From Candidatus Polarisedimenticolia bacterium (GTDB lineage Bacteria > Acidobacteriota > Polarisedimenticolia > Gp22-AA2): a stretch of DNA of 64,000 nucleotides. A program made the translations under genes and the position numbers. How positions within the stretch are numbered: the first letter of the stretch is position 1; each line of letters begins with the position of its first letter. The stretch covers positions 124,001-188,000 of the forward strand of contig DASYUH010000032.1 in assembly GCA_036001465.1 (NCBI GenBank), read 5' to 3'. The notes beneath the pieces are model-generated. The model saw only the letters and a list, made by a program, of their open reading frames with translations. It was not told the DNA's origin and made no database searches. Positions 33,987-38,931 of this stretch are shown here, piece by piece.

Positions 33987-34678
33987 CGTTCAACGCCATC
34001 TGCTTCGTCGTGCAGTCGTTCATCGACGAGCTGGCGGGCGCCGCGGGCGTGGACCCTTTCCGCTTCCGGCTGGCGATGCTCGACGCGCCGTCGGCGCGTC
34101 CCCCGGACGTGGAGGACCCGCTGGACAAGTTCGACCCGAGGCGCATGCGGCGTCTACGAAGCCGTCGCCGCCAAGTCGGGGTGGGGCTCCCGCGCGCCGG
34201 CGAAGGCGACCGCTCCGGGGAAACGAACCGCGCTCGGGATCGGCGGGCACTTCTGCCATTACGGCTACTCGGCCGTGGTGGCGGAGGTCGGCGTGGACGC
34301 CAAGAACATGGTGCGGGTGAGCAAGGTCTGGTCGGTCAACGACATCGGGCGTCCGATCATCAACCCGAGCGGCGCCGTCCAGCAGGTCCAGGGCTCGGTG
34401 ATCGACGGCCTGAGTCACCTGATGAACTACGAGATCACCTTCGAGCGCGGCCGCGCCGTGCAGAGCAACCTGCACGAGTACACGCCGCTGCGCATGGCCG
34501 AGACGCCGGCCGCGATCGACGTTCAGTTCCTCGAGACCGACCACGCGCCGAGGGGCCTCGGCGAGCCGGCCCTGCCACCGGTCCTGCCCGCGGTCGCCAA
34601 CGCCATCTTCACGGCGACCGGCCAGCGCGTGCGCGCCCTGCCGCTCTCGAAAGTCTCTCCTGGGCGGCGGGAGCGTAG
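33986..34678 (+). pseudogene. C-terminal remnant of an IorB-like aldehyde/isoquinoline oxidoreductase large subunit gene
   Basis: The fragment resembles the end of molybdopterin-binding subunits of the isoquinoline 1-oxidoreductase (IorB) type. Frame one gives TFNAICFVVQSFIDELAGAA and DPLDKFDPRRM. At about 34148 the reading shifts, and the next frame gives VYEAVAAKSGWGSRAPAKAT, KVWSVNDIGRPIINPSGAVQ, GSVIDGLSHLMNYEITFERG and GLGEPALPPVLPAVANAIF. Near the end LPLSK is followed by what looks like a two-base CT slippage that moves the original SWAAGA-stop into another frame (TAG 34676-34678). It has lost its 5' part and has two frameshifts, so it is dead. No small (2Fe-2S) subunit gene remains nearby. 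Confidence 0.78.
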
Positions 34679-34732: not shown

Positions 34733-34827
34733 GTGATGGGAGACATGGTCCTGCTGGAAGACCAGGTCAACGCGGTGATGAGCACGGCGCTCGACAACGG
34801 CCTCGAGGTCACGGCACTTCACAATCA
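34733..34827 (+). pseudogene. Short remnant of a DUF1259-domain gene
   Basis: About 32 codons, GDMVLLEDQVNAVMSTALDN then GLEVTALHNH, match the conserved segment of DUF1259 (LppY/LpqO-like) proteins, in which the His-Asn-His motif is followed by many further residues. Here the match stops at HNH, exactly at the stop codon of the convergent AbiEii-like gene (34825-34827). In-frame stops precede it. It is a third gene fragment abutting the SulP and IorB remnants. Confidence 0.55.
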
Positions 34828-35610
34828 CGAATCCGCGATCCGCGGCAATACGCCGCCGGGGCGGCCGAAATGCAGGACGGAATCGGCCGCCTCGCGCGGG
34901 TCCACGAAATTGCGCCGCGAGGCGCTGTAGTAGAGGCAGCCGATCTCCTCGGGGGGGCGCGATGCGACGAAACCCTCCACGGAGTCGAGCGCCTCGAGCC
35001 ACTCCTGCTTCAGCGACCGGAGGTCGATCGGCGTCGCCAGATCGAGGCGCGCCAGGTCCTCCTCGCGAACCCGCCCGCGCCTCCGCAGCAGGTCCAGGAG
35101 GGACAGCGGCGTGAAGCCGGGGTCCTTGCCGCACGCCGCCCAGCACAGGGCGCCCAGCGCCAGCACCCTGCGGTGCAGATGAACTGCGTCCAGAACGTCG
35201 CGGGCTTCGTCCCGACCGGCCAGCGCGAGGACCTTGTTGACGGCGAGATCGACGGGGTGGAGCACGAAACCGACCCGCTCGTCGCGTTGGGTCGGCATGA
35301 ACCGCCAGGCTGAGTCGCGAGCCCACTCGACCTTGGTGGCGTTCCCGCCCTGGCTTACGACGGCGCGGACGTAGCCGGCCTGATTGAGATCGACGTCGAC
35401 AGTGAACTTGTGACGCTCGAGCAGAGCGCGATCGGCGGCGAACGCCTCCGCGACGCGCGCCTCCGTGTCGTGAAAGTAGTCGAGATCGCGGCTGAAGCGC
35501 GTCGTGTTCGGCTCGATCAGAATCGCTGCCCCGCCTGCCAGGTACGAATCGAACGTCCGATTCCCGGACAGCAACCGGGCCACGACTGCCTGATAATCGG
35601 TCAGCGGCAC
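34825..35610 (-). CDS. AbiEii/AbiGii-type nucleotidyltransferase (toxin-like)
   Basis: A 261-residue cytoplasmic protein of the AbiEii-like nucleotidyltransferase group, whose members are toxins of type IV-like toxin-antitoxin or phage-abortive systems and transfer nucleotides to tRNA or protein. Key signs are YLAGGAAILIEPNTTRFSRD followed by LDYF, giving the GG and S-x-D-L-D nucleotidyltransferase core, and the later DLAVNKVLALAGRDEARD helix with Lys/Asp. It is open end to end. The start is GTG 35610, overlapping the last ten bases of the 88-codon upstream gene, so translation is probably coupled. It is intact amid gene remnants, which fits an addiction module. Toxicity is inference from family. 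Confidence 0.8.
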   Translation of the reverse strand: MPLTDYQAVVARLLSGNRTFDSYLAGGAAILIEPNTTRFSRDLDYFHDTEARVAEAFAADRALLERHKFTVDVDLNQAGYVRAVVSQGGNATKVEWARDSAWRFMPTQRDERVGFVLHPVDLAVNKVLALAGRDEARDVLDAVHLHRRVLALGALCWAACGKDPGFTPLSLLDLLRRRGRVREEDLARLDLATPIDLRSLKQEWLEALDSVEGFVASRPPEEIGCLYYSASRRNFVDPREAADSVLHFGRPGGVLPRIADS

Positions 35611-35867
35611 AGTCGGCTCGCCACTTCCCAGGCGTCACGGCCGCCGTGCCGGCGGAGCTGGTCGGCCACCCAGGCGACGTCGGACGGTCGGATCTCGTAG
35701 TCGGGATCGAACGACCAGAAGCACCTGGCGTGGAATCGCCGGTAGGCTCGGCGCGCTTCACGCACGCGGACCATTTGCCGGGCCATGCCGGGATCCAGAA
35801 CCCGGCGGCTCTTTCGGCCGCCCCGCCGTCCGATCTCCGAGAGATAGTCCCTTACCTTGCGTTCCAT
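35601..35867 (-). CDS. Small partner protein of the AbiEii-like gene (putative antitoxin)
   Basis: An 88-residue basic protein: IGRRGGRKSRRVLDPGMARQ then REARRAYRRFHARCFWSFDP and DVAWVADQLRRHGGRDAWEV. Similar small proteins often precede AbiEii-type nucleotidyltransferases, but they are not the classical AbiEi fold and I cannot name a Pfam family. The Arg/Gly-rich N terminus could bind DNA. It is first in the operon, overlaps the nucleotidyltransferase by ten bases, and lies a few bases downstream of a promoter filled with two inverted repeats, as expected of an autoregulating antitoxin. The antitoxin role is inferred from order and promoter layout. Confidence 0.68.
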   Translation of the reverse strand: MERKVRDYLSEIGRRGGRKSRRVLDPGMARQMVRVREARRAYRRFHARCFWSFDPDYEIRPSDVAWVADQLRRHGGRDAWEVASRLCR

Positions 35868-36027: not shown

Positions 36028-36372
36028 TCAGCGCTTCCCTTTGCTCAGACGCAGGAGGGTCACGGCGATCCGCTAAGCCTGGCTCGGAAGCGTCCTGAGG
36101 TCGGCGGTCTCGTTCGGGTGTGACCGCCGTCCCCCATCAGGCCGATGCCGTCGAGCGCCATGTCCACGAGCCCCTCGGTGAACGAGACGTCCGCCCGCTC
36201 GGTGGCGTCGATGAGATCCCGCCGGGCGAGAGTCAGGGGCGCGCCCGAGTCCTCCTCGTCTCCAATCAGAATCGCCACGAGCGACAGCCGGTCGAGGGCC
36301 CCCGCCCCGCGCAGGGTCTGGAGGGCCAGGAGCATCACCACGTCCCCCTTCATGTCGATGATGCCCGCCCGA
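36028..36372 (-). pseudogene. Decayed M20-type peptidase gene
   Basis: Remnant of a zinc carboxypeptidase/acetylornithine-deacetylase-like gene. The first block AGIIDMKGDVVMLLALQTLR, GALDRLSLVAILIGDEEDSG and RRDLIDATERADV carries metal-site residues (Asp, Glu-Glu-Asp). It then jumps directly to the C-terminal block FTEGLVDMALDGIGLMGDGG, a frameshift follows at about 36115, then NETADLRTLPSQA, an in-frame TAG (36075-36073) where relatives have Lys, and RIAVTLLRLSKGKR with the natural TGA at 36030-36028. Lesions are therefore a missing 5' half, an internal deletion, a frameshift and a nonsense codon. Its 5' edge is fused to the hydrogenase-like small subunit gene. Confidence 0.75.
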
Positions 36373-37114
36373 GCAGTCGCGGCAGCCCGTCCAGTATGCC
36401 GAGCGGGTGTGGCGGGCAGCCGGGGACGAACAGATCGACCGGAACGACCCCCGCGGCACCGTCGAGCTGCTCCGGATGGCCGGCGTACGGCCCGCCGGAG
36501 ATGGCGCAGGCCCCGACGGCGATCACCAGGCGCGGCCCAGGGACGGCCTCCCAGGTCTTGCGCAGGGCGTGCTCCATGTTGCGGGTGACCGGGCCGGTGA
36601 TGAGCAGGCCGTCGGCGTGGCGCGGCGAGGCGACGAACTGGATGCCGAAGCGGCCGAGATCGAAGACGATCGTGTTCAGGACGTTGACCTCGACCTCGCA
36701 CCCGTTGCAGCCGCCGGCGCTGACCACGCGCAGACGGAGGGACCTGCCGAAGAGCCGCCGCGACTCGTCGCCGAGCGCCGCCGCCAGCCGCGGGCCGTCG
36801 CCGCCGAGGACGAGATCGTCGCGGCGGCGCGCCGCCATCCGGGGATCGTTGGTGAAGCGCACCGCGCCGTCCGGGCAGGCAGCCTCGCACTCGCCGCAGA
36901 ACAGGCAGCGGCCGAGATCCAGCCGCAGCCCCTCGGGGCCGCTGGAGAGCGCCCCCGTGGGGCACGCGGCGACGCACTCCGCGCATCCCGAACGGCATTT
37001 CTCCGGCTGCAGGACCGGCAGCCCGCGCAGCCGCTCGGGGAGCGCCGGAAGCGGGCCCGGATACGGGACCGTGCGGTGCCCCTGGCGCGCGCGCACCAGC
37101 CACGATTTCAGCAT
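36350..37114 (-). CDS. Group 4 hydrogenase-like/NuoB-like small subunit with 2[4Fe-4S] ferredoxin domain (HyfI-like)
   Basis: A 254-residue electron-transfer subunit. Residues 35-95 hold two ferredoxin clusters (CRSGCAECVAACP and CLFCGECEAACP). Residues about 125-245 form the NuoB/HycG-like domain with all four cluster ligands: GGCNGCEVEVN, VGACAISGGPY and PGCPPHPLGIL. In group-4 hydrogenases and related Ehr complexes this subunit passes electrons to or from the large subunit. The last codons (after LPRLLGRA) run into the neighbouring M20 remnant in another frame, so the native C terminus has been replaced by a few foreign residues. It starts 22 bases after the large-subunit stop. Without membrane subunits nearby it may be non-functional. 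Confidence 0.82.
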   Translation of the reverse strand: MLKSWLVRARQGHRTVPYPGPLPALPERLRGLPVLQPEKCRSGCAECVAACPTGALSSGPEGLRLDLGRCLFCGECEAACPDGAVRFTNDPRMAARRRDDLVLGGDGPRLAAALGDESRRLFGRSLRLRVVSAGGCNGCEVEVNVLNTIVFDLGRFGIQFVASPRHADGLLITGPVTRNMEHALRKTWEAVPGPRLVIAVGACAISGGPYAGHPEQLDGAAGVVPVDLFVPGCPPHPLGILDGLPRLLGRASST

Positions 37115-37136
37115 GCCGGGCCGCCGGCGCCGCGGC

Positions 37137-38609
37137 TCACAGGTCGTGACCGCAGCAGGAGAGATTGAAGCTCTTGTTGCACAGCGGAAAATCGGAGATC
37201 GGCTGATCGCGCATCGCCGCGGCGAGACCGCTCCAGTTGTGGAACGAGGGATCGACGACCTTGTAGAGGCGGAACCGGCCGGTGTCGTCCGTGAGGGCGG
37301 TGTGGCAGATCTCCCCGCGCCATCCCTCGACGAGCGACACCGCGAGACTCCCGGGGGCGAGGCCGGCGGCCGCGGTGCGGATCGGGCCCGGCGGAAGAGC
37401 CGCCAGGCGCGCGCACAGCCAGGCGATGGAGCGCTGGACTTCGAGCCATCGCACCCAGGCCCGCGCCCGGACGTCGCCGGAGGCGGCCGCGGCGATCTCG
37501 ATCGGATGCTCGCGCCAGATTCCGGACGGGAACGAGGTCCGCGCGTCTCGTCCGATCCCGCAGGCGCGCGCCGCCGGGCCGACCAGCCCGAGCGCCTCGC
37601 AGGTCCCGGGGCCGACGGCGCCGGTCTCCTCGAAGCGCGCCCGCACGGTCGCGGTGCCCCACAGAAGCGACGTGGCGTCGGCGGCCTCGTCGAGAGCCGT
37701 GAGGGCCAAGGGTATCAGTGCCGCCGCCTGCTCCGCGCCCAGGTCGAAGGCCACCCCGCCGGGCCGCACCAGCCCGCGGCCGAGCCGGCTGCCGCACAGT
37801 TCCGCCGTCAGGTTCAGGAAATCCCCGCGCAGCCGTCCGCAGAACGCCGCCGCCGGCAGGTAGCCCACGTCCCCCGCCAGCGCCCCGAGGTCTCCCACGT
37901 GGTTGGTCGCGCGCTCGAGCTCGAGCGCCACGCCGCGCAGCGCCTCGGCGCGCGGCGGCGGAGAGGAACCCGACAGCGCCTCGACGACAAGGGAGTAGGC
38001 CCAGGCGTGACCGATGGACGTGTCCCCGGCCAGCGTCTCGATGAGGTGGATCGTGCGCGCGTCGGGCCCGCCGGCGAGCGCCCGCTCGACGCCGCGATGC
38101 TGGTAGCCGAGGGCGATCTCGAGGAACAGCACGCGCTCTCCGTGGCACTGGAAACGAAAGTGTCCCGGCTCGATGATCCCGGCGTGCACCGGGCCGACCG
38201 CGACTTCGTGGACCTCGTCGCCGTCCACCCTGAAGAAGTCCGGCGTGCCCGGAGCCGCCCCTGCCCCGAGGAACCGGACCGGCTTGAGCCAGGGGTGCCC
38301 CTCCGGGACGACGGCAAAACGCTCGGCGATCTCCCGCTCGAAGAGGTGCGCCTGCGGGCACTCGGGGGTGAGCGCCCGGTAGCCGCCGCGGATCGGCTCC
38401 GAGCGGGCCGCCGAGAGACGATGGTCGCGATCGCTCCCGAGGATCGCCAGGAGACCGGTCCCGTCGCCGTCGGGGAAGCCCGGCAGGGACAGAATCCTCT
38501 GGCCCGATCCGACGGCGTCGAGGACGACGCGCCGGAACCGATCGACGGGCAGCGGGGGCACATCGGCCAGCGGCAGCGTCCCCGAGGGCGGGATCGCGGT
38601 CACGGACAT
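37137..38609 (-). CDS. NuoC/NuoD-fused large subunit of an energy-converting hydrogenase-related complex (HyfG/HycE-like)
   Basis: A 490-residue protein with an N-terminal NuoC-like part (ECPQAHLFEREIAERFAVVP) and a NuoD-like part (FLEIALGYQHRGVERALAGG, LELERATNHVGDLGALAGDV, LVEGWRGEICHTALTDDTGR, then DPSFHNWSGLAAAM). True NiFe hydrogenases bind the metal with two Cys-x-x-Cys motifs. Here the first site reads TLAGDTSIGHAW with no Cys, and the last reads FPLCNKSFNLSCCGHDL, so the NiFe centre is absent. This resembles the HycE-like protein of the mycobacterial Rv0081-Rv0087 cluster and other Ehr complexes. GGGAGG precedes ATG 38609 by six bases. The upstream membrane-arm genes of such operons are missing. 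Confidence 0.82.
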   Translation of the reverse strand: MSVTAIPPSGTLPLADVPPLPVDRFRRVVLDAVGSGQRILSLPGFPDGDGTGLLAILGSDRDHRLSAARSEPIRGGYRALTPECPQAHLFEREIAERFAVVPEGHPWLKPVRFLGAGAAPGTPDFFRVDGDEVHEVAVGPVHAGIIEPGHFRFQCHGERVLFLEIALGYQHRGVERALAGGPDARTIHLIETLAGDTSIGHAWAYSLVVEALSGSSPPPRAEALRGVALELERATNHVGDLGALAGDVGYLPAAAFCGRLRGDFLNLTAELCGSRLGRGLVRPGGVAFDLGAEQAAALIPLALTALDEAADATSLLWGTATVRARFEETGAVGPGTCEALGLVGPAARACGIGRDARTSFPSGIWREHPIEIAAAASGDVRARAWVRWLEVQRSIAWLCARLAALPPGPIRTAAAGLAPGSLAVSLVEGWRGEICHTALTDDTGRFRLYKVVDPSFHNWSGLAAAMRDQPISDFPLCNKSFNLSCCGHDL

Positions 38610-38931
38610 CGCGCGCCTCCCATCAGGCCCCTCCGACCAGAAGCGCCGCCTCGCGCAGCAGGGCGTCCCGACCATCTACCGGGACGATCTGCAGGCGCGC
38701 TGAGATAGGGATGGTGGAGTCTCGCGCCCGGGGAATGATTCGAGCGTCTGGAACTTCATCGCGATGGCCGGTTCCTATATCGGGGTGAGGCCGGACTGAG
38801 CCCGAATGCACCTCCCGGTATCCCCGCCTCCCGAGTCCGTCTCGGGCGTTTTCCGCCCCGGAACCGAGGAATCGACCTGATACCTGGGCGACCCCGTCAC
38901 GGCGCATCCTTCACGCCGAGGAGGACGCCCC
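38610..38931. other. Intergenic region with a possible 3' remnant of an upstream operon gene
   Basis: These 322 bases separate the hydrogenase-like operon from the small secreted protein gene. Directly before the large-subunit start, the minus strand reads RLQIVPVDGRDALLREAALL and a TGA 11 codons before the ATG, in a position where hyf-type operons carry a membrane-subunit gene. The piece (about 38623-38706) is too short to identify. Upstream of it I see nothing coding. The right end carries GGAGG for the gene at 38932. Confidence 0.35.

Follow-up and report, generated by a model that had tools for sequence, protein, structure and literature searches.

An orphaned pair of Ehr-type large and small subunit genes in a Candidatus Polarisedimenticolia genome, probably the remnant of a decaying operon

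Energy-converting-hydrogenase-related (Ehr) complexes are described, in the passages of three papers that deal with them, as relatives of the group 4 or Ech hydrogenases (PMC6349859, PMC7894505, PMC10284858), and two of these passages state that they are related to the group 4 enzymes and lack Ni/Fe-binding residues (PMC6349859, PMC10284858). The Ehr of Geobacter sulfurreducens (GSU0739-0745; EhrA, EhrC, EhrL, EhrS) is presented, in the passage devoted to it, as having NuoL-like and HyfE-like membrane subunits together with a large and a small subunit (PMC7894505), and where function is touched upon it is called unknown or never investigated (PMC7894505, PMC10284858). The genes analysed here lie in a stretch of 64,000 nucleotides from a Candidatus Polarisedimenticolia bacterium (the window, by which we mean the whole of that stretch), and encode a large subunit, L, and a small subunit, S, of the same type, a likeness to the G. 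sulfurreducens complex that is drawn from this description. A Geobacteraceae locus among our comparison sequences (L117, 57% identity in L) carries the full set of genes, whereas in the window just L, S and the tail of F are left. Relative to formate hydrogenlyase (7z0s), the CGIC and CxxC cysteines of HycE are replaced in the Ehr family, and the window protein joins ferredoxin and small subunit in a single chain, unlike HycF and HycG. NuoD, NuoB and NuoI of complex I, which have no NiFe site, belong to the same protein superfamilies as L and S but to a separate family, and the membrane-bound hydrogenase Mbh carries a NiFe site, unlike the window L. Ehr complexes are reportedly also covered by Marreiros et al. 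in 2013.

The pair and the gene fragments near it are placed in the window as follows:

33992..34655, plus strand: truncated, frameshifted C-terminal fragment of a molybdopterin oxidoreductase gene (context, outside the Ehr operon)
36031..36368, minus strand: M20-family peptidase pseudogene abutting S, with three lesions
36350..37114, minus strand: S, EhrS-type small subunit, a ferredoxin domain plus a NuoB/HycG-like domain, 12 Fe-S cysteines kept
37137..38609, minus strand: L, EhrL-type large subunit, NuoD/HycE-like, an intact 490-codon ORF without NiFe ligands
38623..38670, minus strand: remnant of a hyfF-like membrane subunit gene, its last ~13-15 codons plus stop, RDALLREAALLVGGA

The L frame is fully open on the minus strand from its ATG at 38609 to a stop that ends at 37137. 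Its product of 490 residues matches the Complex1_49kDa family (PF00346, 99.9 bits), with a weak 30-kDa-like part at the N-terminus, and its nearest solved structures are HycE of formate hydrogenlyase (7z0s_E, E 2e-37) and, in second place, Mbh (6cfw), identifying it as a homologue of the group 4 hydrogenase and NuoD large subunits. In an alignment of L with HycE, AGDT (within the motif TLAGDTSIGH) takes the place of the CGIC of the first metal site and the C-terminal CxxC has no counterpart, the protein ending instead in FPLCNKSFNLSCCGHDL. By this alignment and by the column counts given below, L is without the NiFe-binding cysteines and has neither of the two CxxC ligand motifs of a group 4 [NiFe] hydrogenase. 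A first-pass annotation, made earlier from the letters of this stretch, had reported the same two absences. The genome likewise gives no match to HypD (PF01924), and NiFe maturation is therefore not expected.

S is a fully open frame encoding 254 residues, in which an N-terminal 2x[4Fe-4S] ferredoxin domain is fused with a NuoB/HycG-like domain (Pfam matches to Fer4 domains and to Oxidored_q6, the latter at 103.6 bits). The best solved match of the NuoB-like domain is MbhJ (6cfw_J), followed by HycG (7z0s_G), and the ferredoxin part matches HycF (7z0s_F). All 12 Fe-S cysteines are present, including the NuoB-like ligands C136, C139, C203 and C233, and at every one of these columns 78 or more of the 81-83 relatives compared, after sequences outside 220-330 aa had been dropped, also have Cys; one of the 50 highly conserved columns is altered in the window. 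The coordinates and open frames given by the first-pass annotation for both genes, and its statement that S keeps every Fe-S ligand, thus agree with what we find. Judged from these alignments, L and S are members of the Ehr family at the protein level and not a complete Ehr complex.

We compared the pair with 94 related loci, 14 from relatives and 80 kept of at least 515 found when GTDB 220 was scanned with one genome for each species, with species overlap possible between the two sets; the 80 kept relatives belong to many phyla, among them Planctomycetota, Verrucomicrobiota, Myxococcota and Acidobacteriota. Across the 93 other L sequences, 86 have Ala in place of the first Cys, almost all have A/S and T/S at the CGIC positions, and SFNLSYCGHDL at the C-terminus hardly varies. 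The near-invariance of this motif across the family rules out ligand loss as a sign of decay, and the missing NiFe ligands are a fixed trait of the whole Ehr family. The first-pass annotation had put the missing ligands and the missing membrane arm under one heading; both losses are real, but the first is family-wide and only the second is special here. Substitutions peculiar to the window (listed with L054 and L049 left out) strike one otherwise invariant Tyr and one invariant Ala, the Tyr being that of the C-terminal NLSYCGHDL motif of L, which is Tyr in 93/93 other sequences and is replaced by Cys in the window. In all, two of 115 highly conserved L columns are altered; 76 of the 93 sequences change fewer.

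Upstream of L, nothing remains of E, C, B and R, and F has lost all but its tail. The open frame there ends in RDALLREAALLVGGA and a stop, resembling the F C-termini of relatives (for example APLENLLREAARFLENPR and a stop in L076). Thirteen residues align to the HyfF-like C-terminus, the best match among 1358 six-frame segments of the window; taken alone, this short match carries little statistical weight (E 0.23 over all segments), and we ascribe it to F because of its position, strand and stop-to-start spacing. The possible last piece of a preceding gene noticed in the first-pass annotation corresponds to this HyfF-like tail, which lies on the strand and at the very spot where F should end. 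At the other end, S stays in line with the family as far as LLGR; the four residues that follow, and the stop, coincide with the beginning of M20 peptidase homology in another frame, and these final four codons and stop (36350-36364) probably derive from the adjoining M20-peptidase fragment. The M20 pseudogene lacks ~155-175 N-terminal residues, carries an internal deletion of ~180 residues and is frameshifted, and a search of 4 other genomes of the genus gave no match to it. We considered a single insertion of the Ehr fragment into an M20 gene and rejected it, as no N-terminal M20 half lies upstream of the F remnant; there are also no convincing repeats at the junctions of the fragment. Some 1.7 kb beyond the 3' end of S lies the molybdopterin oxidoreductase fragment, an intact 896-aa paralogue of which is found elsewhere on the same contig (locus L189). 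The stretch around the L-S pair is, in short, a small gene graveyard. The 441 bases around the L start contain no match to a sigma-70-type promoter.

Two further observations concern this neighbourhood. The molybdopterin oxidoreductase fragment (33992-34655, plus strand) has a stretch of 79% identical DNA within the same contig. Between the two pseudogenes lies an AbiEii-like nucleotidyltransferase ORF (34825-35867, minus strand, E 1e-4), the start of which is overlapped by an 88-aa ORF, and the two together resemble a type IV toxin-antitoxin pair.

The membrane arm is missing next to the pair and, as far as searched, from the genome as a whole. No arm genes occur in the window or in the searched flanks (12 kb and 19 kb), and membrane subunits of the HyfB/F, HyfC and HyfE type are not encoded with L and S. 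Genome-wide searches with PF00361 and PF00146 gave five and two hits, all of them (5/5 and 2/2) on contigs C44 and C90, the complex I contigs, on which the two nuoD genes are found as well. These searches lead us to reject an arm at another place in the genome, and the check for orphan hyf-like genes that the first-pass annotation had proposed, which yielded no B-, C- or F-type gene outside those contigs, bears out its claim that the arm is absent. The assembly searched likewise shows no full operon beside the pair.

Such an arrangement is exceptional in the family. Of the listed loci, 71 have 5.2 kb or more of sequence ahead of L, and 70 of them place the arm genes B, C and F directly upstream of it on the same strand; S follows L in 87 of the 88 listed loci with enough downstream DNA, the window included. 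Among 396 sampled genomes of the phylum, 50 besides that of the window gave matches of at least 45% identity, and F adjoins L in 47/47 acidobacterial orthologues whose upstream DNA was examined, a count that leaves out G275 and G133, where the contig edge intervenes, and G149. Arm loss is thus peculiar to the window copy, a rare event seen once among the Acidobacteriota examined.

The wider comparison also showed some diversity in Ehr operons. A gene for an HTH_17 plus PTS EIIA type-2 protein lies upstream of L in 56 of the 71 listed loci with at least 5.2 kb upstream (L047:6869-7543 is an example, upstream of B), and this EIIA-type protein could be a regulator linked to Ehr; PTS_EIIA_2 is absent from the window's genome. 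Some operons have tandem HyfB-like genes (B-B-C-E-F-L-S; L071, L083, L085, L090, L093, L101, L118, L127, L138, L145 and others), suggesting a variable number of antiporter modules. A different Ehr subfamily, with 41-43% identity in L, occurs in G001, G002, G005 and G006 of the same genus or family and in G008 of the same order (L057-L061). It shows no S-type gene directly after L and has a small-subunit-like gene before B where the upstream DNA allows (L057, L059, L061). The window's genome is without this second subfamily. On contig C233 of G100 (L185), fragments of an L and S pair from another Ehr subfamily are spread over several reading frames and look like a decayed copy.

The same-genus genome G003 has an operon of the window's type (E-F-L-S) on a short contig, in which a deletion of ~148 nt has thrown L out of frame. 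Comparison of the window with G003 gave dN/dS values (Nei-Gojobori) of 0.30 for S and 0.30-0.36 for L, against 0.23-0.28 for nuoD and nuoH (0.23 and 0.28, respectively) and 0.29 for macB between the same two genomes. The first-pass annotation had held that a dN/dS near one would speak against its proposal; the value of ~0.3 with this nearest relative is not of that kind. The dS of L and S (0.8-1.0) exceeds that of the other genes (0.33-0.45), and for this reason the two L-S copies may not be simple vertical orthologues. At three conservation thresholds, changes found only in the window or only in G003 numbered 21 vs 21, 13 vs 6 and 2 vs 2 in L, and 7 vs 9, 4 vs 6 and 2 vs 2 in S, with no significant difference in these relative-rate counts. 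By end-branch length the window ranks 90 of 94 for L, which is long, and 65 of 84 for S, and its L/S rate ratio is ordinary, near the median. Relaxed selection therefore leaves no clear signal in dN/dS, relative rates or the L/S ratio, and is at most hinted at in the window pair. The dN/dS of ~0.3 reflects mostly the time before the arm was lost, and together with the normal relative rate it makes the loss look recent; the lack of more than a hint of relaxation fits a recent loss and equally leaves room for a retained function. An empty site could not be demonstrated by synteny within the genus, matches to the surrounding 19.5 kb being scattered over many contigs.

These results are best explained if the L-S pair is a recently orphaned, decaying remnant of an Ehr operon, a case of ordinary gene decay rather than a new enzyme, a reading to which we assign a probability of roughly 0.77. 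The absent arm, the truncation junctions, the pseudogenes and the G003 copy, which is also broken, lend good support to the dying Ehr-type complex that the first-pass annotation had offered as one of two possibilities. The ancestral operon would have had the order [R]-B-C-E-F-L-S, of which the pair would be the surviving electron-transfer end. A deletion or rearrangement would have taken away all that preceded the final 13-15 codons of F, while the end of S would have been clipped at a second junction, with the M20-peptidase pseudogene. Where relatives have the whole complex, S presumably takes up electrons at its three [4Fe-4S] clusters and passes them to the metal-free pocket of L, after which the antiporter-like B and F would move ions, a scheme suggested by homology with complex I and the group 4 hydrogenases. 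A copy without B, C, E and F would be unable to couple electron flow to ion transport, and the window pair is most likely non-functional or barely functional, its ORFs not yet broken. Intact ORFs, few changed conserved columns and selection tests that as yet show no relaxation speak against the remnant reading.

These same features could point to a soluble Fe-S module with a new role, the other possibility raised in the first-pass annotation, which we regard as unlikely. L and S would then form a cytoplasmic electron-transfer dimer that pumps no ions, with electrons passing from the ferredoxin domain to the L pocket, and would serve another oxidoreductase or act as a redox sensor. Both ORFs are indeed intact, with 12/12 Fe-S cysteines and 113/115 conserved L columns kept and a long-term dN/dS of ~0.3. 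However, its neighbours are truncated genes, with no partner enzyme alongside, S has probably lost its original terminus and no promoter was matched. Related armless L-S pairs would also be expected to recur, and no armless clade was found, leaving the proposal without positive support. The only other L-S pair without an arm among the 71 listed loci, L079, is not sister to the window sequence, and its genome carries an orthologous-type R-B-B-C-E-F on another contig, which ends inside F, so that its arm exists and possibly acts in trans; an armless lineage is therefore rejected.

Marginally less probable again is an artefact of assembly or of an incomplete genome, in which the arm would in reality adjoin the pair or lie on an unassembled contig, the F-tail junction being a chimeric join. 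The genome is a 4.58-Mb draft in 114 contigs, and in G100 a comparable separation of L-S from the arm coincides with a contig end inside F. The window pair, however, lies well inside a contig of 260,912 bases, in a genome rated 100% complete with 0.64% contamination, and the junctions are odd on both sides, and one mis-join does not explain the internal lesions of the M20 pseudogene. We give very little credence to the idea that the pair replaces NuoB, NuoD and NuoI by docking on the membrane arm of either complex I set, since, despite the homology of L and S to these subunits and the two complex I clusters in the genome, L is only ~27-29% identical to the genome's own NuoD proteins, a dedicated Ehr arm is retained even in relatives that have complex I, and no positive evidence favours docking.

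A decaying Ehr remnant thus remains our preferred reading, and its main value is to separate two losses that appear joined at this locus: the loss of the NiFe ligands is fixed in the Ehr family and the loss of the arm is rare. If the pair were expressed and functional, it would offer a simple soluble protein with which to ask for the substrate or electron acceptor of Ehr, and if the soluble dimer were true, complex I would have in it a natural 'peripheral-arm-only' relative, one that could reveal what the metal-free Ehr pocket does without a membrane. As it stands, the main lesson is one of caution over taking orphan complex I-like subunits for new enzymes.
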